A stretch of DNA of 64,000 nucleotides from Anaeromyxobacter dehalogenans 2CP-1 (GTDB lineage: Bacteria; Myxococcota; Myxococcia; Myxococcales; Anaeromyxobacteraceae). This document shows positions 7,620 through 20,136 of this stretch, in pieces. Below the pieces are notes generated by a model. It was not told the DNA's origin and did not search any database. It saw nothing but the letters and a program-made list of their open reading frames with translations. The DNA lies in assembly GCF_000022145.1 (NCBI RefSeq), contig NC_011891.1:2368001-2432000 (forward strand), in the 5' to 3' direction. How positions within the stretch are numbered: the first letter of the stretch is position 1; each line of letters starts with the position of its first letter. A program made the translations under genes and the position numbers.

Positions 7620-7955
7620 ATGGCACGGGAAGGGAAGGGCATCGCCGGCTCGCTCCTCGACGCCGGGACCAGGCTGGTGGCGCGGGCGGCCGAGACCGTC
7701 ATCAAGGACCCGCGCGGCCAGGAGGCGGTGGCGCGCGCGGTCGGCCTGGCCCAGCGCGGCCGGAAGCAGGTCGAGGCGATCCAGGAGCGGGTGATGGCCG
7801 CCGCCGGGATCCCCGGCCGGCAGGACTACCAGGACCTCGCGAAGCAACTCGCCCGCATCAAGCGCAAGGCGCGCGAGCTCTCCGAGAAGCTCCAGGAATC
7901 CGGGCGCGGCGGCGGCGGCGCGCCGCCCGGCAGCCCCGGCGACGGCTCGCGCTGA
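7620..7955 (+). CDS. Small helical protein of unknown function
   Basis: 111 residues, 9 nt after the previous stop, with the GGAGGG Shine-Dalgarno of a coupled gene. The protein is predicted helical: an alanine-rich first half and a basic amphipathic segment (DLAKQLARIKRKARELSEKL) that could form a coiled coil, then a glycine/proline-rich disordered tail. The shape recalls phasin-like or granule-associated proteins, but I see no diagnostic motif and do not assign a function. Last gene of the hsp70 cluster; the tRNA-Val promoter begins 5 nt downstream. Confidence 0.6.
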   Translation: MAREGKGIAGSLLDAGTRLVARAAETVIKDPRGQEAVARAVGLAQRGRKQVEAIQERVMAAAGIPGRQDYQDLAKQLARIKRKARELSEKLQESGRGGGGAPPGSPGDGSR

Positions 7956-7960
7956 TCCCG

Positions 7961-7989
7961 TTGACACTCCCGGGGACCGACGGCATACT
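7961..7989 (+). promoter_or_regulatory. Promoter of tRNA-Val
   Basis: TTGACA (7961-7966), 17-nt spacer, CATACT (7984-7989), then a GC-rich discriminator TCGCCGCC typical of stable-RNA promoters. The mature tRNA begins at 8009. Confidence 0.75.
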
Positions 7990-8008
7990 TCGCCGCCTCG
8001 CAACACCA

Positions 8009-8080
8009 GGGCGCTTGGCTCAGCGGTAGAGCACTGCCTTCACACGGCAGGGGTCGCAGGTTCGAACCCTGCAGCGCCCA
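8009..8080 (+). tRNA. tRNA-Val, anticodon CAC
   Basis: 72 nt cloverleaf: acceptor GGGCGCT (8009-8015) pairs with AGCGCCC (8073-8079), discriminator A8080; anticodon stem CTGCC/GGCAG encloses loop TTCACAC with CAC at 8041-8043, reading GUG valine codons; the T-arm contains GGTTCGAACCC. CCA is not encoded. The 3' part (8061-8080) also forms the left end of the attachment core of the element that follows, and the integrase reading frame on the other strand ends inside the anticodon loop (8040-8042). Confidence 0.97.
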
Positions 8081-9389
8081 CATTCAGCACCGAGGTTGTG
8101 AACAGGCCCAAGCCCGCAAGGCGTCGGGCCTTTTCCATTTCCGGGTCCGCGGCTGCAGGTGCGACTGCGATCCCCCCTGCGACCTCCCCATCGGTATCGT
8201 TTCGCGTGACCCCCGGCGTCGCCGGCGAGGGCGCCTCGAGCTCGATCGCGAGCACCGCCCGGCACAGCGCCGGCCAGACCTTCTCCAGGCGCGTGTAGAC
8301 GTCCTTAGCCTCGCGCGGCGACGGGTGCGTGATGAGGTCCAGGTCCGCCCGCTGCGCGCCGCCGGCGATGGCGAGGGACCGGAACGTCGCCCGCGTCTCG
8401 TAGTGGCTGCGGCCGGGCGGGAGGCCCAGGCGCTCGGTGTCTGCCTTCCATCGCTTGTTGCTGTGGCCGTTCGTCCGCACCCCGCCGCCTCCACGCGGCA
8501 CGACCAGGTCGTCAGGGGTGGGGTCTCGGCCCTGGAACCTCCTCCAGCCCTCGGCGTACCAGCTCCGGAGCAGCTCCCGGAGCAGCGGGTGGACCGGGAC
8601 CACCTTCTCGACGTCCGTCTTCGTGCTCTTCTCGGTGCTGTTCCGGCTGTTGATGGCCGTCCCGACGTGCAGCCGCCAGAGCGGCTCGGCGGTGGTGTCG
8701 AGGTCGCGCCAGCGGCGCGCCGCGACCTCGCCCGGGCGCATCCCGGTGAGGAGATCGAGCGCGTACATCACCCGGCGGTCCTCGCCGATCCGCTCGTCGT
8801 GGATGAGCTGCCAGACCTCGCCGGGTTCGAGGCCGCCCTGGTTGCGCTTTCCGCCCTTCTTGTCGCGCTTCGCCGGGAGGTCGCGCTTCGGCCGCCAGGT
8901 GCAGGGGTTCACCTGGATGTGGTCGACGTCCACCGCCTCCTGCAGGAGCCGCTTCACCGTGCCGGCGACGTGGTGGACGTACCGCGGCGACAGCAGCTCG
9001 CCGGTGTTCTCGGTGCGGCGGGAGGGGAGGGAGCGGACCCACTCCAGCATGCGCGCCCGGGTGAGCTCCGCGAGCGGGATGGCGCCGAGGTCCGGGAAGG
9101 CGTGGTAGGTGAGCTGCGCCTCCTCGTTCGCGACCGAGATCACGCCACGCTTCTTCCGCTCGGCGATCCAGGCCTCGCCCCAGGCGCGGAACGTCAGCGC
9201 GCCCGGCCGCGGCGCCGCGGCGGCCGGCCCGCGCAGCTCCTCGAGGAGGACGTCGAGGAACCGCTGCGCCTGCTCCTCCTCGCCGACGCTGAACCCGGTC
9301 GCCTTCGGCCGCTTCGTCCCGTCGGCGAGCACGAGCACCGCCTCGAGCTTCCGGCCGCGCGGGCGGATGTAGCCGCGGATCTCGCTCAT
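8040..9389 (-). CDS. Tyrosine recombinase (integrase), integrated-state form
   Basis: 449-residue site-specific recombinase. The N-terminal part (1-200) has a SAM-like core-binding domain; the catalytic domain shows Arg218 in LLTGMRPGEV, the H-x-x-x-R-like HYETRATFRS, ITHPSPREAKD and the nucleophile Tyr365 in DVYTRL. It would cut and join the 21-bp core in tRNA-Val. ATG 9389 overlaps the preceding gene's stop (ATGA) and has GGAGGG upstream. The frame continues about 80 residues past the nucleophile, crosses the attachment core as codons 437-443, and ends six codons later with PATPAV inside the tRNA gene. In the excised circle the same frame would continue for 107 other residues (19675 down to 19352). 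Confidence 0.92.
   Translation of the reverse strand: MSEIRGYIRPRGRKLEAVLVLADGTKRPKATGFSVGEEEQAQRFLDVLLEELRGPAAAAPRPGALTFRAWGEAWIAERKKRGVISVANEEAQLTYHAFPDLGAIPLAELTRARMLEWVRSLPSRRTENTGELLSPRYVHHVAGTVKRLLQEAVDVDHIQVNPCTWRPKRDLPAKRDKKGGKRNQGGLEPGEVWQLIHDERIGEDRRVMYALDLLTGMRPGEVAARRWRDLDTTAEPLWRLHVGTAINSRNSTEKSTKTDVEKVVPVHPLLRELLRSWYAEGWRRFQGRDPTPDDLVVPRGGGGVRTNGHSNKRWKADTERLGLPPGRSHYETRATFRSLAIAGGAQRADLDLITHPSPREAKDVYTRLEKVWPALCRAVLAIELEAPSPATPGVTRNDTDGEVAGGIAVAPAAADPEMEKARRLAGLGLFTTSVLNVGAAGFEPATPAV
8061..8081. other. attL: left attachment core in the tRNA-Val 3' end
   Basis: A 21-bp sequence from TTCGAACC to GCGCCCAC is repeated perfectly at 19676-19696. It covers the T-loop, T-stem and acceptor 3' strand of the tRNA. 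On the minus strand it is also seven in-frame codons (V-G-A-A-G-F-E) of the integrase gene. Confidence 0.92.
8104..8135 (+). terminator. Element-supplied terminator downstream of tRNA-Val
   Basis: AGGCCC (8104-8109) pairs with GGGCCT (8126-8131) around an inner GCCCGCAAGGC stem, followed by a T-tract (TTTTCC). It replaces the tRNA's native terminator, which integration displaced to 19702. On the opposite strand the same bases encode the integrase tail. Confidence 0.6.
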
Positions 9390-9838
9390 GCCGCCCTCCG
9401 CCTGGCGAGGCCCAGCTGCGCGTTGGACGGCTCCTCGCCGGGGCGGGCGCGGTACCACCCGCGGCTCCGCGCGATGCGGATGAGGTCGAAGGCGACGCAC
9501 TGGCCAGCGTCGAAGCTCGCGCTCCCGTAGGTGCCATCCTCGGCGAGGAGGTTCGCGCTGGGCGAGCAGGCGATGATCAGGTGCGCGTCCGCCGCGGTCG
9601 CGATGTGCTCGGCCGCGATCTCGTCGATGACGCGCTCGATGGGCACGCGGTACTCCCAGTCCATCCGCGCGTTGGCCTCATCCCGGAGGGCTGAGTACGC
9701 CTCGTCGAACCCGTGGAGCTCGCCGCTCCGGAACCTGTCCTGGTAGACCCTCTCGGCGAGGGCTTCGACCCAGCGCGCGTACCGATCGCGTAGGTAGAGG
9801 AGGTCGGCGCGGCGGCCCTTCTTCGTGACGGCGGTCAT
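9386..9838 (-). CDS. Element protein of unknown function (150 aa)
   Basis: 150 residues, basic N-terminus then mostly helical, with motifs RDRYARWVEALAERVY and a later alternating segment HLIIACSPSANLLAEDG. No family recognised. It ends LARRRAA with its own Shine-Dalgarno-like codons (AGG CGG AGG GCG GCA TGA), so that the stop overlaps the integrase ATG. This makes it likely that integrase translation depends on translation of this gene. Start ATG 9838 overlaps the stop of the preceding gene in the same way. Confidence 0.7.
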   Translation of the reverse strand: MTAVTKKGRRADLLYLRDRYARWVEALAERVYQDRFRSGELHGFDEAYSALRDEANARMDWEYRVPIERVIDEIAAEHIATAADAHLIIACSPSANLLAEDGTYGSASFDAGQCVAFDLIRIARSRGWYRARPGEEPSNAQLGLARRRAA

Positions 9839-10083
9839 GCTGCCCTCCGCGCCGCGCGCGCGGCGGCGGCCTGGCGCCGCACGTTCTCCTTGATGACGGG
9901 CAGCATGTGCTCCGTCCACTCGACCATGACGCCTGCCTTGTGCGCCGCCGCGATAGCCGGGACCGGCTCGCGGTCCTTGGCCGCCGCGTCGAGCGCGTCC
10001 GCCTGCCGTCGCAGCGCGTCCGCGGCCCGCCGGGCGTGGTCGCGCGCGATATCCTTCCTGAGCCTCGATCCGGTGCGGTTCAT
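9835..10083 (-). CDS. Element protein of unknown function (82 aa)
   Basis: 82 residues, strongly basic and alanine-rich, almost entirely helical by composition (repeated DHARRAADALRRQADALDAA type heptads), with a short hydrophobic part near HKAGVMVEWTEHMLPVI. No family recognised. It starts at ATG 10083 overlapping the upstream stop and ends ARRAA, again carrying an embedded GGAGGGC before the next ATG. Third of five coupled genes ending with the integrase. Confidence 0.65.
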   Translation of the reverse strand: MNRTGSRLRKDIARDHARRAADALRRQADALDAAAKDREPVPAIAAAHKAGVMVEWTEHMLPVIKENVRRQAAAARAARRAA

Positions 10084-10529
10084 GCTGCCCTCCTGGTGTC
10101 GCCGCGGCTGAGCTCGGCGACGACCCCCGCCATCACGTGCGCGAGCGCCTCCGCGGTGCGCGCGCTGTGCGCGACCACGTGCTCCGGCTCGCGCCGCCAC
10201 AGCTTCGCGCCGATCTTGTCGGCAGCCGACTGATCGCCCTCTGGCAGAAAGAGGCCGTTCAGGTACAGGCGGACGAGCTCGCTGCGGTGATGCGCCTGCG
10301 CGAGCCACGGCTCCCCTCGCGGCCCCGTGGTGAGGGCTCCAGCCTCGATGGACGCGAGCGCCCGCCGCCTCGCAGCATCGTCGAGTCCGGGCCTGGCGGG
10401 CATGCGCATCACGGCCAGCATCTTCCGCTCGACCGCGCCGGCGAGTTCGGCGAATGCCTGCGCCGTCTGCTCGGCGTTCGCGAGGATCTCCGCATCCCGC
10501 TGTGCGCGGGTGGTCTTGGTCGCCTTCAT
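10080..10529 (-). CDS. Element protein of unknown function (149 aa)
   Basis: 149 residues, helical, starting MKATKTTRAQRDAEILANAEQ; contains a segment WLAQAHHRSELVRLYLNGLFLP that could pack as a small helical domain. No family recognised. ATG 10529 overlaps the previous stop (10526-10528) and the C-terminus TRRAA contains the Shine-Dalgarno of the next gene. Second gene of the integrase transcript. Confidence 0.65.
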   Translation of the reverse strand: MKATKTTRAQRDAEILANAEQTAQAFAELAGAVERKMLAVMRMPARPGLDDAARRRALASIEAGALTTGPRGEPWLAQAHHRSELVRLYLNGLFLPEGDQSAADKIGAKLWRREPEHVVAHSARTAEALAHVMAGVVAELSRGDTRRAA

Positions 10530-10675
10530 GCTGCCTTCCTGGTCTCCTGCGCCGCCGCCGGCGCCTCGGGCGCGGGCTGCGGGTTGGTGGTGGGGTTGCC
10601 GCTCAGAATCTCCGCCGTGCCCCAGCGCCGGCGGGCCTCCTCGAGCTTCGGCTGCTTCTTCGACTCGTTCGCCAT
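10526..10675 (-). CDS. Element small protein (49 aa), first gene of the integrase operon
   Basis: 49 residues, MANESKKQPKLEEARRRWGT..., charged N-terminal helix and a proline/alanine-rich tail ending TRKAA. GGAGG lies 5-10 nt before ATG 10675, and a good promoter lies about 50 nt upstream. No function recognised; a small DNA-binding or transcript-leading peptide is possible. The tail codons form the Shine-Dalgarno for the overlapping next gene. Confidence 0.55.
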   Translation of the reverse strand: MANESKKQPKLEEARRRWGTAEILSGNPTTNPQPAPEAPAAAQETRKAA

Positions 10676-10724
10676 CGTGCCTCCGTCCGGCCGCAGGTAC
10701 CTTCTCTGCAACCCGTGTAGCGCA

Positions 10725-10753
10725 AGATAGCCGGATATTAACTTAGACTGCAA
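10725..10753 (-). promoter_or_regulatory. Promoter of the integrase operon
   Basis: On the minus strand TTGCAG (10753-10748), 17-nt spacer, CTATCT (10730-10725), in a conspicuous AT-rich patch (10721-10752) within GC-rich DNA. It would drive the five genes from 10675 down to the integrase, independent of the genes to the right. Confidence 0.6.
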
Positions 10754-10782
10754 GTCCTCCCTGCCGGGGTCACGCCCAAGCG

Positions 10783-11298
10783 CTACTCGTCGAGCCACCC
10801 GCCGTCCTCGAGACGCTCGCGGATCACCCGGTGGACTCGGCTCATTACCCGCCGCACGTCCGCCTCCTCGCGCCCCGCCTCCTCCGCGATCCACGCGTAC
10901 GCCCGGCCCAGCGCGTAGTGCTCGGCCAGCCAGCGGGCGACCGGCGCGGCCTCGCCTCTCGAGCGCGCGTCCCGCTCGGCCTCCCCGACCGCGAACGCGA
11001 CCGCCGCGAACTGCTCGTCGCCGACGGCGCGCCGCACGGGGTCGTCGCCGATCCTCCCGTTCGCCGGCTCGAGACGGGCCGGGCGCGGCGTCGAGCGGCG
11101 GCGGAGCTGGCGGAAGTACCACCCCAGCGCGTCGCCGGCGCCCGACCACGCGCGGCGCCCGGTGTGCTTCTCCCGGATGCGCCGGATCGCGCTCTGCAGC
11201 ATCGCGGCCGCGAGCTGCGCGCGCTCGATCTCGACGCGGCAGGTCTGCCGGTGCTCGGCCTGGCCGCAGGTGCAGCGCGGGTCGGCGGTGGCGGTCAT
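10783..11298 (-). CDS. Element protein with N-terminal Cys cluster (171 aa)
   Basis: 171 residues. The N-terminus has CTCGQAEHRQTC, a possible zinc site (Cys9, Cys11, His17, Cys20). The middle is basic and helical (IRRIREKHTGRRAW), and the C-terminal 70 residues (WLAEHYALGRAYAWIAEEAG, then EEADVRRVMSRVHRVIRERL) look like a helix-turn-helix or small nucleic-acid-binding domain. No family assigned. ATG 11298 overlaps the upstream stop (ATGA). It is the last gene of the long right-hand operon, before the separate integrase promoter. Confidence 0.65.
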   Translation of the reverse strand: MTATADPRCTCGQAEHRQTCRVEIERAQLAAAMLQSAIRRIREKHTGRRAWSGAGDALGWYFRQLRRRSTPRPARLEPANGRIGDDPVRRAVGDEQFAAVAFAVGEAERDARSRGEAAPVARWLAEHYALGRAYAWIAEEAGREEADVRRVMSRVHRVIRERLEDGGWLDE

Positions 11299-11936
11299 AT
11301 CCGGGCCCTCCGCGCCAGCCGCGCGACGTACTCCGCGAACCCCTCGAACCGCGCGGCCTCGGCCCTCGCCGCGCTTCCTTCGGGGAGGCGCTCCTCGACG
11401 AGCCGCGCCTCCTCGACGAGCTCCTCGAGGCGGTCTCGGAGCTGCGTCCGCGCCCACTCGCGCCGGGCGCGCCTGTCCGCCTTGCGCTCCCGCTCGGCAG
11501 CGTCGGCCCGGCGCCGCTCGACATCTGCAGCGCGGCGCTCGGTCTCCTCGCGGTAGCGCTGCTCCGCGAGCAGCGTCTGCAGCACCAGCCCCACCGCGTT
11601 CGCGCTGCGGGGGTCGAGCTGGCGCGCGAGGGTGGCCCTGCCCACGTCGCGGAGCGCGCCGAGCACGTCCTCGCGCGTCTCGAGCTTCGCCCACGCGGGC
11701 GGCGCCGACGCGGGGCGGCGCGCGATGGTGCCCGGCGCAGCGTGGCCGTCGAGGGCCTGTGCGGGCAGCACCTCGACCACGGGCCGGAGCGCGAGCATGC
11801 GATGCTGGCCGCCTCGGCGGCGCGCCTCGCGGGCCTGCCGCGTCGTCGCTGGCGCGTGCCAGAAGCACCGCCGCGAGCCGCGCATCGCGTCGGCACCGCA
11901 GCGCTTGCCCCTGGCGTTGCGGGCGGTGCACTTCAC
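11295..11936 (-). CDS. Element protein with zinc-finger-like N-terminus (213 aa)
   Basis: 213 residues starting at GTG 11936, which overlaps the upstream stop. The first 30 residues, CTARNARGKRCGADAMRGSR and then RCFWHAP, form a Cys/Cys/Cys/His arrangement seen in small zinc ribbons of phage-associated proteins. From about residue 120 to 200 there is a long charged helix (EERYREETERR-type heptads, mainly R/E/A) that should form a coiled coil. DNA or RNA binding is plausible, but no family function can be named. Confidence 0.7.
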   Translation of the reverse strand: MKCTARNARGKRCGADAMRGSRRCFWHAPATTRQAREARRRGGQHRMLALRPVVEVLPAQALDGHAAPGTIARRPASAPPAWAKLETREDVLGALRDVGRATLARQLDPRSANAVGLVLQTLLAEQRYREETERRAADVERRRADAAERERKADRRARREWARTQLRDRLEELVEEARLVEERLPEGSAARAEAARFEGFAEYVARLARRARI

Positions 11937-12163
11937 CGCCGACCCCGCCGACCCTTACCTTGCACGGGGGGACGGGGGCGCGCGTCCACGTCGGCCGGGT
12001 CTTCCCACGCGGGGAAGTCGAACCCGAGGGCGCGGGCCGCCTCCTCGAGCTTCTCGGAGGCCCGCTCCAGGTCCTCGGCCGTCATCTGCTCGCGCCGCGC
12101 GAGGATCTCCTCGATCTGCGCGTGCAGCTGCTTCACCTTCGGGTAGTCGACGCGTCGTGCCAC
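11933..12163 (-). CDS. Element small charged protein (76 aa)
   Basis: 76 residues from GTG 12163 (GGAG Shine-Dalgarno 7 nt upstream). MARRVDYPKVKQLHAQIEEIL and the following ASEKLEEAARAL form a helical hairpin-like charged segment, with a proline/arginine-rich tail. Its stop overlaps the next gene's GTG (GTGA). Unknown function. Confidence 0.6.
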   Translation of the reverse strand: MARRVDYPKVKQLHAQIEEILARREQMTAEDLERASEKLEEAARALGFDFPAWEDPADVDARPRPPVQGKGRRGRR

Positions 12164-12232
12164 GGTTCATCTCCAGGTAGAGCGCTCCGCCGCAGGCTTG
12201 GGACCTGTGGTCTTCCGCCGCCGCGGCGCCCT

Positions 12233-12781
12233 TCACCTGCAGCGGCGGTCCGTCGGGTCGATGATCCCCGACGCGATGAGGGCCCTGCGCCGCAGCTCCC
12301 CGGGCGTCGGCTCGCCGGCGAAGCCGGGGCCGTACATCATCGTGTCCCAGCCGGTGGTGGTCGGTGGCGCCCTCCAGGCCGCCTCCCACGCTGCCCACGC
12401 GGCGCTGCCCGCCTGCGCAGCCGTCTTCGCCGCAGCGAGGTCCTCGAGGCTCTGCTCGTAGCCCCTCCGGCGCCGCATCTCGTCGGCGAGCAGGTCCGCC
12501 TCCCGGACCTCGCTCGTTGAGAGGTCGAAGCGCCGCGCGACCTTGTGCGGCGGCTCCCCGGCCTCGAGCGAGCGGGCCGCCAGCGCGACCGCCTCCGAGC
12601 TGGGCGGCGCGGAGCGAGCCCACGACTCCACCCGCGAGCGAGCGCACTGCGCGCCCACCCGCGCCCTGAGGAAGACGATTTGCGGAGACGGGTTCGGCGT
12701 CCCGCTGCGGAGCTCCCTCAGCTCGTCGCTGGTGAGCGGCGCCAGGTCGTCTTCCGTCAGGGTCGGCGGGAGGGTCGGCAT
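12233..12781 (-). CDS. Element HTH protein, possible small-terminase-like (182 aa)
   Basis: 182 residues. Central part ALAARSLEAGEPPHKVARRF followed by DLSTSEVREADLLADEM reads as a helix-turn-helix. The C-terminal part WDTMMYGPGFAGEPTPGELR is compact and acidic. Size, HTH and position among virion-like or replication-like genes would fit a small terminase subunit or a regulator, but this is speculation from layout; no diagnostic motif is present. Start ATG 12781 has GAGG upstream. Confidence 0.65.
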   Translation of the reverse strand: MPTLPPTLTEDDLAPLTSDELRELRSGTPNPSPQIVFLRARVGAQCARSRVESWARSAPPSSEAVALAARSLEAGEPPHKVARRFDLSTSEVREADLLADEMRRRRGYEQSLEDLAAAKTAAQAGSAAWAAWEAAWRAPPTTTGWDTMMYGPGFAGEPTPGELRRRALIASGIIDPTDRRCR

Positions 12782-12788
12782 GGCGGCC

Positions 12789-13046
12789 TCAGCCCACGTG
12801 CGTCCGCGCCTCGGCGGCGCGGGCGTCGAACTCGTCGAGCGCGCGCTGCTTCGAGGCGGCGCTCGCGGCCGCGGCGGCGGCGGCGCGGGCGGTCTCGGCG
12901 TCGATCTCGGCCTGGGTGGCGAGGCGCCCGCCCTTGGCGACGTGCGCGGCTGCGGCCTCGTCGCTCACCTGGACGGCGACGTAGCCGGTGGGGACGCCGG
13001 TGGCGACGCCGCCGGCGTACTGCGGAGCTGCGATGAATGCGGCCAT
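12789..13046 (-). CDS. Element small protein (85 aa)
   Basis: 85 residues, with a hydrophobic/glycine-rich N-terminus (MAAFIAAPQYAGGVATGVPTG) and an alanine-rich helical second half. The first half could be a short beta-hairpin like those in phage head- or tail-associated small proteins, but nothing diagnostic is present. AGGAAAGGA lies 7 nt before ATG 13046. Confidence 0.55.
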   Translation of the reverse strand: MAAFIAAPQYAGGVATGVPTGYVAVQVSDEAAAAHVAKGGRLATQAEIDAETARAAAAAAASAASKQRALDEFDARAAEARTHVG

Positions 13047-13078
13047 CTATCTGTCCTTTCCTGCGCTGGGGGACTGCT

Positions 13079-13555
13079 TCAGGCGCTCCGGTTCGCGTTG
13101 GGGAACCTGCGCGCGGACTCCTCGGCCGCGGCCTGCTGCTTCTGCTGCTCGGCCTCGATCGCCTTGAACTCCCCGAGCTCGCGATCGGCGCGCTCGATGT
13201 CGGAGTCGACGTTGGGGAGGCGCTCGACCTGGCCGGCGAGCTGCTGGCGCATCGTCTCGAGCTGCCGCTCGTTGTCGCGCCACGCGCGGACCTTGCGGAC
13301 CGTCGCGTGGTCGGGGTGCGTCTTGTCGAGGCTCCGGCCGGAGTGGAAGCCCACCGTCTGGACCTCCTCGGCCGTCGGCGCCATCGCGGCGGTGGCCGCC
13401 TCGAGGTCCGCGACCTGCTTCGCGAACGCGGCGTGCGCCAGGTGGACGCGCTGCGCCCGCATCCGGGCGTGGGCGGCGCGCGCGCGCGGGTGGTTCGGGT
13501 TCATCGCCGAGAACTGCACCTCTTCCGCGGTGACCTGGTACTTCGACGTGCTCAT
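13079..13555 (-). CDS. Element helical protein (158 aa)
   Basis: 158 residues, largely alpha-helical with heptad character between 85 and 145 (WRDNERQLETMRQQLAGQVE, then ADRELGEFKAIEAEQQKQQA). Starts at ATG 13555 with AAGGAAGGA 5 nt upstream. It follows the 568-aa gene at 58 nt spacing. A coiled-coil scaffold or chaperone role would suit its composition, but no family is recognised. Confidence 0.6.
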   Translation of the reverse strand: MSTSKYQVTAEEVQFSAMNPNHPRARAAHARMRAQRVHLAHAAFAKQVADLEAATAAMAPTAEEVQTVGFHSGRSLDKTHPDHATVRKVRAWRDNERQLETMRQQLAGQVERLPNVDSDIERADRELGEFKAIEAEQQKQQAAAEESARRFPNANRSA

Positions 13556-13613
13556 CCGATCCTTCCTTTCGTGCCCTCGCGGGCGGGTTGGTGCTGCAGG
13601 TTGTCTGACTGCG

Positions 13614-15320
13614 TCAGCGCGCGAAGCGGCCGGCGAACGAGCAGCCGAGGTCGAGAACGCCGATGGGCGAACCCTGGTACGTGCTCGCGGACTCGAGCTG
13701 GTGGCGCACCGGCATCTCTTCCTGCTCCTCGTAGCGCTCGGGCAGGTTCGTCGGGTACGAGACGAGCTGCGACTCGAAGCGCACGCTGGGCGCGTCCTTC
13801 TCCGGGCGGGCGAACCACGACACGCCCGCCCAGTGCACGAAGCCGACGGTGCCCATCCGCCAGTCCTGCGGCGGGTTCGTCACCGCGTACGGCTGGAACC
13901 TGGTGATGGCCGCGAACTCCACCATCCGCTCGAACGCCCATTGCCTCGAGGACGTGACCGGGTCGTACGCGCCATCGCCGGTCGGGAGCCGCCGCACCAT
14001 CCGCAGCCCCGCCACCGCGAGGTCATCGCCTCGCGGCGTGAGCGGGCCGGTGTAGACGTCGGGCCCGAGGTAATCGGCGTCGGGTGCGGCCCAGCCACCC
14101 GGACCGATCCCGGTGTGCAGGCAGTCGCAGACCGTCTGGCGCCGGCGGTAGCGGTACGCCCACAGGATGCCCTGCCAGCACTGCAGGAGGTCCTGGGCCC
14201 TGATCACGTTGCGCGAGACGATCGGGCCCGGCAGCGCGGGCGGGTTGAACGCGTCGCCGTACGTCTCGCCTGCGGGCATCCCCATCTCGACGTGCGACGG
14301 GTACTGCTCCCAGCACGAAACGGAGGCGAGGAAGAAGCCGTTGTCGCCTGGCGGCTGGTACACCCTGATCCGGAGCTCCACCTCGAACCCGCCGAGCCGC
14401 GCGGAGTGGTTGATCGGGAGGGTGTACGTGAGCCATCCGTATGCGCTCGGGCTCGCTTGCGCCTCGAGAGCGAGGAACGTCTCGCCGGCCGTGTAGAGCT
14501 CCGCCACCACCGTGGCCGCCGCGCCGACGTGCTTCACGAGGGTCTTCACGGTGAGCATCGCGGTCCCGGGTGACACCCAGATCCGGTAGCGCGCGACGAC
14601 CTGGTCATTGATCCCGCCTGCGACGTACCAGGGCGTGTAGCTCTTGTTCACCACCGGCCGCGGCGCCCGCGCCGAGAGCAGGTTGCAGTTCAGCGTCATC
14701 GCGCTGAGCGCGTCCGGCGAGAGCGGTTCTCCCGGCGCGAACGCCGCCGAGCTCATCGGCTGGATGGCCGAGGGCACGTCCGCGTAGCGCGCACTCGTCC
14801 ACGTCGACGGGTCCCACCAGCCGCTCAGCGAGTGGATGGTGATCCCGCACCCGAGGCGGGGGATCAGCGAGACCGTGACGGTATCGAACTCCGGCATGCC
14901 GATCGGCAGCGACCCTGACACCCACCCCGTCCCGCCGGGCACGGAGTCGGCGTTGAACTCGAGGTCCGTGACGTTTCCCGAGCCGGAGCGGAGGCGCACC
15001 ACTGCGCCCGTCGCCGGAAGGGTGACCGTCGCGTACACGCGGATCGCGAGCGCCGCGAGCGGCGCCTGCGCGGGGGGTACGATGAACGTGCCGATCACCA
15101 CCTCCGTCAGACCCGCCGGCGCCGTGTTGACGGGCGGGCGGATCCCGCCGGTCAGGTCCACGATCTTCGGGTCGCAGGGCGTCCAGGTGAGGTCGTAGTG
15201 CCGGGCGTGGTCGGCCCATCGCGCGAGCTTGCGGACGAGCTGCGCGAGCACCGGGCGGCTGGCGTGCGTCTCGGCAGCGGCGAACACCGGGCGGGCGTTG
15301 GCGATCATGTTGGTGCTCAT
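13614..15320 (-). CDS. 568-aa element protein of unknown function, beta-rich
   Basis: The largest gene of the element after none of the usual phage families could be matched. After a short helical N-terminus (about 1-40) the protein is dominated by alternating hydrophobic/Thr/Gly segments, and two stretches (about 65-200 and 225-350) each look like a beta-sandwich or jelly-roll unit. The last 200 residues are richer in Trp, Tyr and Cys (WAYRYRRRQTVCDCLHTGIG). Such composition is typical of exported or virion-surface proteins such as decoration or receptor-binding proteins. No signal peptide is visible. ATG 15320 overlaps the upstream stop, so it is translated coupled to the 115-aa protein. 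Confidence 0.75.
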   Translation of the reverse strand: MSTNMIANARPVFAAAETHASRPVLAQLVRKLARWADHARHYDLTWTPCDPKIVDLTGGIRPPVNTAPAGLTEVVIGTFIVPPAQAPLAALAIRVYATVTLPATGAVVRLRSGSGNVTDLEFNADSVPGGTGWVSGSLPIGMPEFDTVTVSLIPRLGCGITIHSLSGWWDPSTWTSARYADVPSAIQPMSSAAFAPGEPLSPDALSAMTLNCNLLSARAPRPVVNKSYTPWYVAGGINDQVVARYRIWVSPGTAMLTVKTLVKHVGAAATVVAELYTAGETFLALEAQASPSAYGWLTYTLPINHSARLGGFEVELRIRVYQPPGDNGFFLASVSCWEQYPSHVEMGMPAGETYGDAFNPPALPGPIVSRNVIRAQDLLQCWQGILWAYRYRRRQTVCDCLHTGIGPGGWAAPDADYLGPDVYTGPLTPRGDDLAVAGLRMVRRLPTGDGAYDPVTSSRQWAFERMVEFAAITRFQPYAVTNPPQDWRMGTVGFVHWAGVSWFARPEKDAPSVRFESQLVSYPTNLPERYEEQEEMPVRHQLESASTYQGSPIGVLDLGCSFAGRFAR

Positions 15321-15664
15321 CGTGCGACGCCCCTTCCTGCGGCGGCCACCGCTGCCGACGCCCTCCGAACGACGACGTCCCCGACCTGCGCCTCGACGGT
15401 CCCGGCCGCGGCCGCGATCGTGAGGCTCGCCGCTGAGTGCGCGACGACTGTCCCGACGCAGCGGGTGGTGCTGTGGTCCGGCGAGCAGATGCGCACCGGA
15501 TCGCCCACCTTGAAGTGCAGCGCGTCCTCGGGCTGGTCCTCGCCGGTGAAGGCCCGACGGAGCGTGGTCACGCACGCGGTCGAGCGCCCCGACGCCGGCT
15601 CCGCCACCCGCGCCGACGGCGCGATCGTGTTGGCCTCGTCGAAGGTGGTGGTCTCACCGGCCAT
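15317..15664 (-). CDS. Element beta-rich small protein (115 aa)
   Basis: 115 residues, MAGETTTFDEANTIAPSARV..., with an SH3-like or beta-barrel feel in DALHFKVGDPVRIC and GTVEAQVGDVVVRR. Because it is coupled by ATGA overlap to the 568-aa protein, the two may form a complex; a head-tail-connector-like or plug role is one possibility. ATG 15664 is preferred to the upstream ATG 15679 because a GAGG element lies 8 nt before it. Confidence 0.6.
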   Translation of the reverse strand: MAGETTTFDEANTIAPSARVAEPASGRSTACVTTLRRAFTGEDQPEDALHFKVGDPVRICSPDHSTTRCVGTVVAHSAASLTIAAAAGTVEAQVGDVVVRRASAAVAAAGRGVAR

Positions 15665-15950
15665 GGGGCACCTCGGCATGCGCCGGGCGGGCGCGCTGCA
15701 GGTCGGAGGTCTGCGGCAGCGGCCGCGCGGCGGTCGGGTCGGACGCGATCGAGCGGTGGCCGAACGGCGGCCACAGGTCGATCCCGCCGTCCTCGCGCAC
15801 GCGGAGCTGCTCGCCGTGCAGGCCGACGATCACGGTCCCGGGCTGCGCGAGAGCGAGGTCCTCGAGGCGGAAGGCGCGGCGGGCGCGCGGATCGAGCGCC
15901 ACCGGCCGGGAGTCGTTGCCTGTGTAGACGTCTGCATTGCTAGACCGCAT
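15654..15950 (-). CDS. Element small protein (98 aa)
   Basis: 98 residues with a strong GAGGAGGA Shine-Dalgarno before ATG 15950; the start overlaps the end of the replication-type gene by 11 nt and the end overlaps the next gene by 11 nt. A central LEDLALAQPGTVIVGLHGEQ segment followed by VREDGGIDLWPPFG suggests a small beta domain. Function unknown. Confidence 0.55.
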   Translation of the reverse strand: MRSSNADVYTGNDSRPVALDPRARRAFRLEDLALAQPGTVIVGLHGEQLRVREDGGIDLWPPFGHRSIASDPTAARPLPQTSDLQRARPAHAEVPHGR

Positions 15951-16869
15951 CTGCGATTCCTCCTCGTTGCGGGTCGCCCCCTGCCATGGACGCGGCCTGC
16001 GCCTCGCGGCGCTCACCGCCTTGCCGTGGCTCGCCGGGCGCTCGGCTGCGCTCGTTGCACGCCACGGTTTCCAGCCATCCCGGGAGCGCTGCGAGCGAGC
16101 GGATCGGTCCGCTCCTCCGGGCCGCCATCTCGTCGGCGATCTGCAGCGCGGCTTCCGTCGCAACGCGCAGCCCGAGCCGCGCCACCTGCTCCGCGAGCGG
16201 CGCCGTGCCGGTTCGTCCGCAGCCGCCGAGGCGCTCCTCGGGACCGAGCCGCCCCCGGGAGCGCTCGTGCACCTCGAGCGCGGTGCGGAGCTGCTCCAAG
16301 TCCGCGCCCATCGCTCGCGCCGGCCGGCCGCCGCCGGACGCCGCCCGCGCCCGCGCGGGCCGGCCGGCAGGTGTTTCAGGTGCGGGTTCAGGGGTTCCTT
16401 CTTGGATGGGTGCGGCCGAGGGTGCGGCCGAGGTCGCGGCCTGGGTCGCGGCGGAGGTGGCGCCCGAGGTTGCGGGAGAGGTGGCGGCCTCGCCGTCGGG
16501 CCACAGAATTCCGCCCCACTTTCGGAAGTCTACGAGCGTCGGCGAGGTGGCGGCCGGGGTGGCGGACCGCGCGCGGCTGAGGTCGCAGATCCCGACGCGG
16601 GCGAGGGTGCGGAGGGCCCTGCGGGCAGCGTCCTCCGAGATGCCCAGCGCGGCGCCGATCCCGGCGTAGCTGACGAGGACCTGCCCGCGCTCCACGCGGA
16701 GCACGCGGCCGTCCGGGAGACGAACGTCACTGCCGCCCGCCTTGAACTCCGCCAGGTACAGCAACGCCGCGAGGACGTGCATGTTCACGGGCGGCCTGGC
16801 GTTCAGCGCGAGGGCCATCAGTTCGTTCGGCCAGGCGGTGAAACCGCCGCGGGCGCGGAAGCCGAGCAC
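15940..16869 (-). CDS. Winged-helix replication-type protein
   Basis: 309 residues from GTG 16869. The N-terminal 100 residues show the pattern of a phage or plasmid replication-associated winged helix: VERGQVLVSYAGIGAALGIS then EDAARRALRTLARVGICDL, followed by the VDFRKWG motif. Residues about 118-155 are a low-complexity run of A-A/T-T/S units (ATSPATSGATSAATQAATSA), a feature also common after this domain in other replication proteins. The C-terminal region is alanine/arginine-rich. It probably binds the element's origin or recruits a host helicase; no ATPase motif is present, so it is not itself a helicase. Confidence 0.7.
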   Translation of the reverse strand: MLGFRARGGFTAWPNELMALALNARPPVNMHVLAALLYLAEFKAGGSDVRLPDGRVLRVERGQVLVSYAGIGAALGISEDAARRALRTLARVGICDLSRARSATPAATSPTLVDFRKWGGILWPDGEAATSPATSGATSAATQAATSAAPSAAPIQEGTPEPAPETPAGRPARARAASGGGRPARAMGADLEQLRTALEVHERSRGRLGPEERLGGCGRTGTAPLAEQVARLGLRVATEAALQIADEMAARRSGPIRSLAALPGWLETVACNERSRAPGEPRQGGERREAQAASMAGGDPQRGGIADAV

Positions 16870-17289
16870 CTAACGGCGCCCCCCGTGCTTCAAGTCCGCC
16901 GCGATGCGCCGCGCGCGGGCCTCCGCCAGGTCGACCGCGCCCGCGGGCTGCTTCCGCTGCTCGCCGGCGAGGAGGGCCCGAAGTTCGGGCATGATCACGC
17001 GACCGCGGTGGCCGCGCGAGAGGCGCCCGGTGCCCTGCCAGCGAGCCAGGGTCGCGGGCGACAGGCCGACGGCGCGCGCAGCTGCCCGCCGCGGCAGCGT
17101 CTCGGGCTCTCCGGCCGTGCGGTCGCCGAGGACCTCGCGCACCACACCGCGGACGAGCTGCTCGAGCTCGCCGCGCTTCAGCTCGAGCAGCTCCTGCCGG
17201 ATGAGGCCGGCGACGACGGCGACGGCCGCCTCGAGGGGCGAGGGGGCGCAGGCTGGCGCTCTGGGGCGCGGCTCCAGGTCGTCGGTCAC
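16870..17289 (-). CDS. HTH DNA-binding element protein (139 aa)
   Basis: 139 residues starting at GTG 17289, which overlaps the stop of the XRE gene (GTGA). The C-terminal half has an HTH, LPRRAAARAVGLSPATLARW, followed by a wing-like GRLSRGHRGRVIMP as in MerR/excisionase-type proteins. The N-terminal half is a charged helix (LIRQELLELKRGELEQLVRG) suited to dimerisation. Coupling to the XRE gene suggests that both are part of the element's control region. Confidence 0.7.
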   Translation of the reverse strand: MTDDLEPRPRAPACAPSPLEAAVAVVAGLIRQELLELKRGELEQLVRGVVREVLGDRTAGEPETLPRRAAARAVGLSPATLARWQGTGRLSRGHRGRVIMPELRALLAGEQRKQPAGAVDLAEARARRIAADLKHGGRR

Positions 17290-17483
17290 CGCGCCAGCTC
17301 CTCGGCGCGCAGCCCGAGCGCTCCCGCGATCTTCTCGAGGGTCGCGGCCGACAGCCGCCTCCCGGCTTCGCCCTGCTGGATCGTCGCGTAGTGGACGCCG
17401 GCGGCTTGCGCCAAGCCGAGCTGCGTGAGTCGCGCGCGCTGCCGCGCCGCGCGGATCGGGTTCGTGTTCTCCGTGGTCGCCAT
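17286..17483 (-). CDS. XRE-family repressor-like protein (65 aa)
   Basis: 65 residues, essentially one helix-turn-helix domain: RARLTQLGLAQAAGVHYATI then LSAATLEKIAGALGLRAEEL, the classic Cro/C1 fold. ATG 17483 has GGAGG 8 nt upstream; longer in-frame starts lack this. An imperfect palindrome (17496-17513) covers the ribosome-binding region and is a likely autoregulatory operator. Candidate master regulator of excision or lysogeny of the element. Confidence 0.85.
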   Translation of the reverse strand: MATTENTNPIRAARQRARLTQLGLAQAAGVHYATIQQGEAGRRLSAATLEKIAGALGLRAEELAR

Positions 17484-17495
17484 CGGTCTCGCCTC

Positions 17496-17513
17496 CGTAC
17501 GCTTCTGCATACG
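17496..17513. promoter_or_regulatory. Candidate operator of the XRE gene
   Basis: CGTACGC-TTCT-GCATACG: 7-bp arms with one mismatch and a 4-nt centre, 13 nt upstream of ATG 17483. Confidence 0.45.
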
Positions 17514-17590
17514 GGACGAGTTTCGACGGCAAGCTCGAACGGCCTCCACTCCAGGCAGCACCGCCCGGAAGAAACCGGGGGGTAAGACCT

Positions 17591-18358
17591 CTAGGTTTCC
17601 CCCTCGCCGCCGGCCGCCTCGACTTCGCGCCACCAGGTCGCCTGCTCCTCCAGCCGGATCGCCAGCTCCAGCTCAGCGGTCCAGCGCGTGTCGTCGGAAG
17701 CGAGCTCGTGCCAGGGGGCTAGGATCGGCACCGGCTCGCCGACCTCGCGGGCGATCTCGGGCGTGATGAAGGACGCGTACATCTCGATGTTCAGAGTCTC
17801 CAGCCGGTCCGCCGGCAGGTTCCGAAGGCAGTCCTTCACCAGGCGCGCGCCGTTCTTGGCGGCATGCGGCGCGAACGCCTCGGAGCCGACCGCAAAGCGG
17901 GCGAGCCGATAGACGACCCGTCGAACCTCGGCCCGCTGCAGCTCCGCCGTGGTGAACAGGGATGCGAGCCGTAGGATCGCTGCGTACGCGCGGTCGCGCC
18001 CGGGCCGCCCTCCCGGCGTGCTGACAAAATGGCGTGCGAGCAGCTCGGCTTGCTCGACCGACAAGCCGCCACGGAGGAGCGCGAGGCAGCAGCGGTGGTA
18101 GAGCGTCTCGGCCTGCTCCCGGCTCCGGGGGGACGGCAGCCACTCCGCCGGGTTCGTGAGCAGCCACTCGACATGGTCGGTGCGGAGCGTCAACCCTGCT
18201 GCAGTCGCCTCGGCGGCGAGCTCCCCCGCACGTTTCCGACGTTCCGCAGCCGCCCGCTTCTCGGCGACCACCGCGGCCCGCTTGGCCGCGCGCGCCCGAC
18301 CGACGTCCTCGTACTCGCGTTCGCGGGCGTCCGATCGTGATGCTACCGTCTTCCGCAT
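17591..18358 (-). CDS. Element protein of unknown function (255 aa)
   Basis: 255 residues, with a basic alanine-rich coiled first 55 residues and a compact helical domain containing two Cys in LYHRCCLALLRGGLSVEQAE and a later NGARLVKDCLRNLPADRLET. No family recognised. ATG 18358 is chosen because GGGAGGG precedes it; ATG 18388 has no ribosome-binding site. About 107 nt separate its end from the XRE start, room for a promoter of the XRE transcript. Confidence 0.65.
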   Translation of the reverse strand: MRKTVASRSDAREREYEDVGRARAAKRAAVVAEKRAAAERRKRAGELAAEATAAGLTLRTDHVEWLLTNPAEWLPSPRSREQAETLYHRCCLALLRGGLSVEQAELLARHFVSTPGGRPGRDRAYAAILRLASLFTTAELQRAEVRRVVYRLARFAVGSEAFAPHAAKNGARLVKDCLRNLPADRLETLNIEMYASFITPEIAREVGEPVPILAPWHELASDDTRWTAELELAIRLEEQATWWREVEAAGGEGET

Positions 18359-18424
18359 CGGCTCGGCCCTCCCACGCCGGTCGATCACGGGGGCGGCCGC
18401 TGGCAGGCGGCGCGCCCCCGCTTC

Positions 18425-18643
18425 CTACGCGGCCCTCACCAGCGACAGCGATCGCTCCCGCTCGCGGCGCAGGTACGCGAGCACCTCGGCCTCGGGTAGG
18501 CAGACCTTCCCCCCGACGCGCTGCCCGCCGAGCAGCTCGCCGGCGCGGATCCGGCGCGCCACGGTCTTCTTCGACACGCCGAGGCGGCGGGCGACGGCGG
18601 CCATCGGCAGCAGCGGGCCCTTCGTCCCGGGCTCCGGCGTCAT
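18425..18643 (-). CDS. Excisionase/MerR-type HTH protein (72 aa)
   Basis: 72 residues. LPMAAVARRLGVSKKTVARR followed by IRAGELLGGQRVGGKVCLPE is a clear winged HTH of the AlpA/excisionase/MerR-like class, which in phages and satellites bends DNA at att sites or activates excision. ATG 18643 overlaps the upstream stop (ATGA). Likely the element's recombination directionality factor, by family and size; not proven. Confidence 0.8.
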   Translation of the reverse strand: MTPEPGTKGPLLPMAAVARRLGVSKKTVARRIRAGELLGGQRVGGKVCLPEAEVLAYLRRERERSLSLVRAA

Positions 18644-18855
18644 CGGCGCCCCATCCAGCCGTCGAGGATCTCGCGCAGCACCGCCGACTTGTCCGGCCGG
18701 GCAGTCTCCGCCTCGGCGGCGCGCCGCAGGGCCTCTGCGGTGAGCGCCTTGTCCTGGCGCTCCTCGAGCCGGAAGAGCACCGGCTTGAATCCCTTGAAGT
18801 CGCTGCGGCGCTGCCGCTTCGGCTCCGCCTCGGTCTTCTGCGGCTTCTTCCTCAT
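18640..18855 (-). CDS. Element small basic protein (71 aa)
   Basis: 71 residues, MRKKPQKTEAEPKRQRR..., basic N-terminus then an amphipathic segment (FKPVLFRLEERQDKALTAEA) ending EILDGWMGRR. Resembles a ribbon-helix-helix or ParG-like small DNA-binding protein in size and charge only. GGGAGG lies 5 nt before ATG 18855; an upstream ATG at 18888 has none. First gene of the long leftward operon. Confidence 0.6.
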   Translation of the reverse strand: MRKKPQKTEAEPKRQRRSDFKGFKPVLFRLEERQDKALTAEALRRAAEAETARPDKSAVLREILDGWMGRR

Positions 18856-18924
18856 GCACGCCTCCCGGCACCACTCTCCCAGACGCATATCAAGCTAGCA
18901 CGCTGGGGTGACGTGCGCTCCGGG

Positions 18925-18953
18925 TTGACGCAGCGTGCGAGACACGGTAGCCG
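18925..18953 (+). promoter_or_regulatory. Promoter of the element lipoprotein gene
   Basis: TTGACG (18925-18930), 17-nt spacer, TAGCCG (18948-18953), 28 nt before ATG 18981. It reads opposite to the rest of the element. Confidence 0.5.
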
Positions 18954-18980
18954 TCGAGGCCTCCAGCAAGGGGGATCCAG

Positions 18981-19343
18981 ATGCCTCGTCTGCGCGCGCT
19001 CGCCGTCGCCACCGTGGTCGCCGTCACCAGCTCGGGCTGCATCGCGCTCGGCTCGTCGATGGGGCTCGACATGGACAGCTCCATCGGCTCCAAGCCGTAC
19101 ATGGGCGAGAGCTTCAACGCGCTCTCCGAGCCGGAGCAGGACGGGTTCCGCCGGTGCCGGCCGCAGACGTACCGGGCGATGTGCGGCACCGACGAGAACC
19201 AGGTGTTCGCGAGCCTGTGCGTCAAGGAGCGCGGCGAGGAGTACGCCGGCCTGGAGGACGCCCGCGCGCGGAAGCTGTGGCTGCTGAAGCAGGGCTGCCC
19301 GCTCTCCATGGTCGACCCGGCCGCGGCGCTCGGCGAGCGCTGA
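18981..19343 (+). CDS. Element-borne lipoprotein (moron-like), 120 aa
   Basis: 120 residues with a lipoprotein signal (hydrophobic run ending TSSGC, Cys20). The mature part has five further Cys (in RRCRPQTYRAMCG, SLCVK, QGCP) suggesting disulfides in the periplasm. No family recognised. It is the only rightward gene inside the element and has its own promoter, like a phage moron expressed in the integrated state. Small lipoproteins of phages can block superinfection at the envelope, which is one hypothesis. Confidence 0.75.
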   Translation: MPRLRALAVATVVAVTSSGCIALGSSMGLDMDSSIGSKPYMGESFNALSEPEQDGFRRCRPQTYRAMCGTDENQVFASLCVKERGEEYAGLEDARARKLWLLKQGCPLSMVDPAAALGER

Positions 19344-19351
19344 CGCGCGGC

Positions 19352-19696
19352 TCACGACCGCCCGCCGGCGACGACCCTCAGGCCGCCCGGCGCGGTCGCC
19401 TCGAGGACGCGGAGGGCGTCGGCGAGCAGGACCCGCGCCCGCGCCTGATCGTCGCCCAGGAGGGCCCGCGCGGCCTCCAGCGCGGCCGCCGCAGCGAAGG
19501 CCGGCGCGCCGGAGGGGAGGGCGCCGCCATCCGCGGCGACGCACGGGGCAGGGTCACAGGGCGCGCTCGGTGAGTGCGGCTGCGCGCACATGTCGACTGC
19601 CGGCGCTGCCGGATGAGTGCCGATGCGAGCCCCGGTGAGCGCGGGTGAGCACGTCTGAGCGGTTCTCCGTGCAGCTTCGAACCCTGCAGCGCCCAC
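19352..19696 (-). pseudogene. Stranded 3' segment of the integrase gene
   Basis: Reading leftward from the attR core, the seven codons V-G-A-A-G-F-E are followed in the same frame by 107 codons and a stop at 19352. In the integrated state this piece has no proper start. Joining core to core, as excision does, fuses it in frame to the integrase at 8061-9389 to give 550 residues. The segment has a Cys-containing linker (TCSPALTG, MCAQPHS, CDPAPC) and a helical end (LEAARALLGDDQARARVLLA). It converges with the lipoprotein gene. Confidence 0.8.
19676..19696. other. attR: right attachment core
   Basis: Perfect 21-bp copy of 8061-8081; the 5 bases before it (GCAGC versus GCAGG) also match at four positions. 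Immediately to its right begins the displaced native terminator of tRNA-Val. Confidence 0.92.
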
Positions 19697-19701
19697 TCCG
19701 A

Positions 19702-19753
19702 GACGGGCCGGAAGCTCCGGGAGAGATCCCCGAGGTCTGGCCCGTTTCTCTTT
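19702..19753 (+). terminator. Original tRNA-Val terminator, displaced by integration
   Basis: GACGGGCC (19702-19709) pairs with GGCCCGTT (19739-19746) around an inner GGAAGCTCC stem, then TTTCTCTTT. Excision would put it directly after the tRNA. Confidence 0.7.
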
Positions 19754-19876
19754 GGCGCGCGGCGACGTCGCCGCTCCTCGCGTGAGTCGTACCACACGCT
19801 GAGCGAAGGGCCGCGCCCAGGCGGCCGACGCGCGCCGGCGGCGCGGGCGAGGGGGGGCGCGTGCTAACCTCGCGCC

Positions 19877-19990
19877 GTGCCCTCCGTTCGCAAGATCCTG
19901 CTCGCCGCGATGCTGTTCGCCCTCGGCTATCTGACGATGCAGGCCACGCGCTGCGAGTCGCGGTCTTCCGGCGCGCCCGTCGCGCGGTAG
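19877..19990 (+). CDS. Possible 37-aa membrane peptide
   Basis: GTG 19877: one hydrophobic helix (KILLAAMLFALGYLTMQ) followed by a short polar tail with one Cys. There is no clear ribosome-binding site. Otherwise the stretch 19754-20136 shows nothing I can support. Confidence 0.25.
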   Translation: MPSVRKILLAAMLFALGYLTMQATRCESRSSGAPVAR

Positions 19991-20136
19991 GACCCGCGGC
20001 TCGCGCGGCGTGCCCGTCCCTCGCGGCTGCCGGTGAGGCCGGAGGACCGGTGGCGCACACGCGCGCAGCTTCGCCGACCCCGGCGCCGCCCCGCGCGCGG
20101 GCTCGGCCGCGCGAGGAAGCACGCTACACTGAGGGG

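Follow-up and report, generated by a model that had tools for sequence, protein, structure and literature searches.

A putative Mx8-type integrative element in tRNA-Val of Anaeromyxobacter dehalogenans 2CP-1 whose integration would exchange the C-terminus of its integrase

An integrated element at the 3' end of tRNA-Val

The stretch of DNA analysed here, referred to as the window, comprises 64,000 nucleotides of the genome of Anaeromyxobacter dehalogenans 2CP-1 (positions 2,368,001 to 2,432,000 of NC_011891.1, a single contig of 5,029,329 bp). It holds an integrated element of 11.6 kb core to core (8082–19675), lodged in a tRNA-Val gene, with an attachment site that probably lies inside the element's own integrase gene. 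The target gene, tRNA-Val(CAC) on the plus strand (8009–8081, ARAGORN), has as its 3' end the 21-bp attachment core TTCGAACCCTGCAGCGCCCAC. Exactly two copies of this core occur in the window, the left one (attL) at 8061–8081 and the right one (attR) at 19676–19696, with none on the opposite strand. Extension of the match into the bases just upstream gives 25 identities in 26 positions, the sole mismatch being g at 8060 against c at 19675.

The two flanks of the element (7701–8081 and 19697–20100) were joined and aligned to Anaeromyxobacter genomes. The first 522 bases of the joined sequence matched the tRNA-Val locus of Anaeromyxobacter sp. PSR-1 in a 529-nt alignment (88.8%) that is unbroken at the junction, and another Anaeromyxobacter aligned over 455 bases at 80%. 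Judged by this alignment, the PSR-1 locus is an empty site, of the kind that an earlier interpretation made from the window alone (hereafter the sequence-only reading) had proposed to look for in sister strains. A contig scan named two sister genomes as Anaeromyxobacter soli SG29 and Anaeromyxobacter sp. PSR-1; a further sister (G001; 5,013,479 bp) has another element, of 12.3 kb, in its tRNA-Val site, with the identical 21-bp core at either end. Since the joined flanks match the empty PSR-1 site and G001 carries its own element at that point, the ends of the window element are real.

The integrase frame runs through the attachment core

The integrated element encodes a tyrosine integrase of 449 amino acids on the minus strand (8040–9389; phrog_1 integrase, E = 7e-32). 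From its ATG at 9389 the open reading frame (ORF) enters the left core, which it reads as V-G-A-A-G-F-E (VGAAGFE), adds the residues PATPAV and stops at 8042–8040, within the anticodon loop of the tRNA. At the far end of the element 107 codons and a stop follow in frame with the right core (19352–19675, minus strand). Virtual excision, in which 9389–8061 is joined to 19675–19352, yields a single ORF of 550 codons, so that this segment would form a 107-residue C-terminal tail of the excised-form enzyme. The candidate catalytic residues R218, K257, R333, H355 and Y365 are invariant in the alignment of integrases, and each of them precedes the core. The coordinates, core frame and 449- and 550-residue forms given by the sequence-only reading proved exact base for base, and its proposal that attP lies within the integrase gene and that integration swaps the C-terminus is supported by the virtual junction and by the comparative frames described below.

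The same arrangement recurs in related myxobacterial elements

Integrase relatives were drawn from the order and the phylum, and both ends could be defined for 12 elements, which target tRNA-Val, SeC, Glu, Lys, Asp and tmRNA genes. At each of the 12 virtual junctions the integrase frame runs through the core and stays open for a further 67–117 codons, as compared with a mean of 38.5 codons for the two other frames at the core (Mann-Whitney p = 3.5e-5). A first-order Markov model puts the chance of 67 or more open codons in every one of the 12 at 6e-6, a value that flatters the case because the threshold of 67 was taken from the data themselves and the elements are related. Core candidates of 13–14 bp in G017:C41 and G192:C70 were discarded as chance matches.

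The closest comparison is provided by G001. Its tRNA-Val element encodes an integrase 65% identical to that of the window, and the virtual junction runs in frame through VGAAGFE into an 82-residue tail related to the window's; in its tRNA-SeC element the integrase is about 45% identical and the tail has 91 residues. The frame in which the core is read varies (GFE in one tRNA-Glu element, GIRT in two others), and the tails end differently (GGRS, PHAC, DAHGA, GGVA). Lack of conservation of the frame in related strains had been named by the sequence-only reading as a finding that would speak against it; the frame instead recurs in the sister elements.

The distal tail is recognisable as protein

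By sequence the tails fall into groups: those of small elements, with a short helical hairpin, those of tmRNA prophages (G101, G116) and those of tRNA-Asp prophages (G068, G070), the last of which match the tail of myxophage Mx8 itself (shuffle z 13–19). When the tails of two sister elements were compared with ORF pieces of the window, the window tail ranked first of 1973 and first of 1959; among the profiles tried on window ORFs, it was found by these two sister tails only. For two pairs of tails the ratio of nonsynonymous to synonymous substitution rates (dN/dS) is low, at 0.32 and 0.40 over the distal half.

A profile of the virtually excised tails was then compared with 5161 six-frame ORFs from viral contigs that encode integrase relatives. 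With the window tail included, the two best matches fell on the C-terminal ends of integrases that are uninterrupted, encoded by the IMG/VR contigs L194 (E = 9.7e-9) and L189 (E = 9.5e-4). A seven-tail profile without the window tail returned the same top two of the 5161 (L194, 2e-5; L189, 9.7e-8), with the next match at 0.04. Both integrases keep antisense tRNA 3'-end codons in mid-gene, and body, attachment core and tail thus form one gene in L194 and L189. A homologue carrying the tail continuous with an integrase, the absence of which would have told against the sequence-only reading, therefore exists on two viral contigs. These relatives came from an alignment search of viral contigs; a single-protein search of viral contigs returned nothing. 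Other viral-contig integrases of the same family (L175, L176, L179, L180, L193) end no more than 29 residues past the matched body and have no long tail, and they constitute natural tail-less controls.

An AlphaFold2 model of the L194 integrase, built from 27 sequences, has a mean predicted local distance difference test score (pLDDT) of 83. It contains N-terminal, core-binding and catalytic parts of the usual kind, which match lambda Int, Tn1549 Int and Cre, followed by a disordered stretch (420–481) that holds the core codons (445–451), and then by two confidently predicted helices (486–506 and 510–531; hairpin 486–531). The window tail modelled alone gave a poor model (pLDDT 52) with helices at the corresponding place: residues 64–79 and 84–101, at low confidence, of a 114-residue stretch starting at the core. 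These helices fall in the distal tail (19394–19507, minus strand), which is related to the tails of both sister elements and may form a two-helix hairpin. A sequence search of solved structures retrieved none. With the core in a disordered linker and the catalytic residues upstream of it, the model suggests that integration would cut the flexible linker and remove the hairpin while sparing the catalytic residues.

The core-proximal tail as a candidate DNA arm

The portion of the tail next to the core carries features of a different kind. It contains four direct 18-nt repeats (GGTGAGYGCGG-like; 19569–19661, plus strand), which are candidate arm-type integrase sites within the coding tail. A 23-bp motif (19644–19666, plus strand) is retained at 19 of 23 positions in the sister tRNA-Val element, all other sampled 350-bp pieces of which have at least 7 mismatches to it. 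The motif lies 9 bp from the core in the window as against 19 bp in the sister, a shift of roughly one helical turn, and the two copies differ in codon phase. Retention of the motif despite this change of phase indicates that it is conserved as DNA and not as protein, and it looks like an arm-type integrase site. The tail stretch probably does double duty, as a DNA arm near the core and as a protein module distally.

Repeats of comparable position were observed elsewhere in the family. The left arms of G038, G038:C128, G023, G157 and the G001 tRNA-SeC element carry, within 100 bp of the core and inside the integrase gene, tandem short repeats, for instance TGTCACACC or GGCGACACC, at a spacing of about 11–13 bp, and several elements have direct or inverted copies in their right arm. 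These repeats may be arm-type sites that flank the core on either side; arm-type repeats common to left and right arms reach p < 0.05 in some elements only, uncorrected for multiple tests.

Comparison with known systems

As the sequence-only reading had supposed, the window integrase is akin to that of Mx8, whose Int is its best match among 50,697 phage records (35.8% identity over 322 residues, E = 4e-39). The Mx8 gene (Int/IntP; D86464, AF396866) likewise encodes a homologous tyrosine integrase with attP in the coding sequence and a core that is the 3' end of a tRNA read antisense, and a tail of about 110 residues is lost on integration. A review (PMC6070905) describes Mx8 integration as modifying rather than inactivating the integrase, in the manner of a molecular switch, and cites a similar principle for Mx9, whose enzyme is likewise a myxophage integrase. 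Mx8 is a 49.5-kb phage at tRNA-Asp, whereas the window element has 11.6 kb, resides at tRNA-Val and carries a tail of another sequence class. The window tail is long like that of Mx8, but homology to the Mx8 tail was detected just for the Asp-type tails of G068 and G070. Phage Mx8 itself (Myxoctovirus) has virion genes in its genome of about 50 kb, and in the window element, with its 11.6 kb, Pfam and PHROGs recognised no structural gene. No gene resembling Mx8 uoi was recognised at the start of the window integrase.

The SSV-type (suicidal) archaeal integrases are defined by an attP placed within int (PMC8371274); their gene is divided into int(N) and int(C), with the catalytic part separated. 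In the window element only the C-terminal module would be exchanged, and the R, K, H-x-x-R, H and Y residues stand in one ORF upstream of the core. The authors of Islander had reckoned with integrases extending across attP and named Mx8 and SSV (PMC4383910); the passages in question note the overlap alone and give no tail family or state-dependent form.

A proposed exchange of C-termini and its alternatives

We consider an Mx8-type architecture, in which the 11.6-kb element in tRNA-Val carries attP inside its own integrase gene, to be the best account of these sequence data, with a probability of roughly 0.85. In the free circle the 550-residue integrase would consist of arm-binding, core-binding and catalytic domains, followed by a flexible linker, encoded by the attP core and the DNA on either side of it, and by a C-terminal helical hairpin, and this long form would integrate at tRNA-Val. 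Integration would cut the gene in the linker codons, leaving the hairpin and the P'-arm DNA at attR without a start, while at attL the gene would run into the antisense host tRNA and end six residues past the core, as the 449-residue form with PATPAV. Because all catalytic residues precede the core, we infer that the integrated form stays catalytic, with its activity or site preference changed as the review reports for Mx8. The likeliest role of the hairpin would lie in protein-protein contacts within the integrative complex, so that its loss would disfavour re-integration or alter excision. Whether the two forms amount to a functional switch is an even bet in our estimation, and the idea, raised by the sequence-only reading, that the form of the enzyme serves as a memory of state is plausible by analogy. 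More tentatively still, and with less than even probability, a whole family of myxobacterial integrases might carry a detachable hairpin on an attachment-site linker, the form recording the free or integrated state and setting the direction of recombination, possibly with less need for a directionality factor.

The most serious alternative is that the tail is a passive by-product, with attP and the P' arm packed against the 3' end of the integrase gene and a frame left open by high G+C content, having no function as protein. Several results weigh on that side. At the composition of the window a frame of 107 or more codons stays open by chance in about 28% of cases, and another frame past the core is itself open for 98 codons; an open frame of this length is within chance, which is why it was tested by comparison with related elements. 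Fisher combination of the single-element lengths gives p = 0.10, so that the argument rests on uniformity across elements and not on any single length. The integrase stops before the tRNA in three chromosomal relatives (G036, G017:C41, G137:C56), and the close viral-contig relatives L175 and L176 are without a tail, which appears dispensable in some lineages. A nine-tail profile misses the alanine-rich window tail after composition correction (rank 553; rank 8 uncorrected), and a five-tail profile did not pick it up among the window ORFs. In the closest pair tail dN/dS is near 0.8 and not below that of shifted frames, and the sister's copy of the 23-bp motif, conserved at the DNA level, stands in a different codon phase. 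Set against this are the in-frame continuation in 12 of 12 elements within a narrow range of lengths, the protein-level similarity of the distal half between elements and to uninterrupted viral integrases (E = 9.7e-9; 9.7e-8), and the hairpin confidently predicted there, so that for the tail as a whole a by-product appears unlikely. It may come closest to the truth for the core-proximal tail, which would there be mainly a DNA arm site.

The exchange might alternatively act through protein stability, with one C-terminus serving as a degradation signal and the state setting the level of integrase rather than its activity. Integration-dependent systems of mycobacteriophages make the integrase level depend on state; the principle is known in other phages, and an abstract mentions it for Gordonia phages. 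The two termini in the window differ and are partly hydrophobic (PATPAV against VVAGGRS). The tails of different elements, however, end without a shared short tag and have the helical hairpin as their common feature, and we regard this possibility as somewhat less likely again than that of a by-product. A suicidal integration of the SSV type, in which disruption of the gene would inactivate the integrated form and trap the element unless it is helped in trans, would share with the window element the position of attP within int. It is improbable given that all catalytic residues are retained in one ORF of 449 residues and that Mx8 integration is reported, in the review cited above, not to inactivate the enzyme. 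That the repeat, being just 21 bp, might be a tRNA fragment placed by chance, with 19676 not a true end, can practically be dismissed: PSR-1 is uninterrupted over the 529 nt of the joined flanks, so that the empty site already refutes it, and the G001 element is inserted at the identical point.

The exchange of C-termini at an attachment site within the integrase gene is accordingly of a kind already known from Mx8 Int/IntP. New, as far as the sequences indicate, are its occurrence in a small, non-Mx8 element and the recurrence across myxobacterial elements of a putatively detachable hairpin on a linker encoded by attP. Mx8 has so far been the sole well-studied bacterial case, and an exchange at integration is now indicated across many myxobacterial elements, from 10-kb elements to 50-kb prophages, with varied tRNA and tmRNA targets. 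The predicted linker and hairpin make up a defined module that bears on directional control in tyrosine integrases.

Other genes of the element and of its relatives

A 177-residue ORF without a Pfam match (9386–9919, minus strand) overlaps the start of the integrase gene by 4 nt, which suggests translational coupling; it is placed like uoi of Mx8, and no similarity to it was found. An HTH_17, excisionase-like protein (18425–18874, minus strand; Pfam HTH_17, E = 2.3e-7) is a candidate directionality factor. An XRE/Cro-type, repressor-like regulator (17286–17633, minus strand; Pfam HTH_3, E = 2.7e-9) has a similar ORF in the G001 tRNA-Val element. The sequence-only reading had called the element apparently capsid-less, and Pfam and PHROGs recognised no virion gene among its proteins, which is absence of evidence because most of these proteins match nothing at all. 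The large central protein (13614–15317) matched nothing in Pfam, PHROGs or the viral contigs and could be a structural protein. A plasmid search found no close relative.

The two G001 elements, at tRNA-Val (L043/L044; G001:C1 ~2046500–2058826, 12.3 kb) and at tRNA-SeC (L045/L049; G001:C1 ~2130928–2143747, 12.8 kb), have integrases of the same family as the window's and little else in common with the window element, apart from the small XRE regulator in the former. The tRNA-SeC element carries a RelE/XRE-like pair with the look of a toxin-antitoxin system near its right end; a 63-nt match to the tail in G001 (L049) lies inside a dehydrogenase-like gene and was set aside as chance. Some small elements of this integrase family may be satellites or small phages. 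The 10-kb tRNA-Glu element L094 (G038:C6) contains a 494-residue ORF resembling the large subunit of phage terminase (PRHGKTTL) and a 202-residue serine-recombinase-like ORF that recurs in that genome's tRNA-Lys element.

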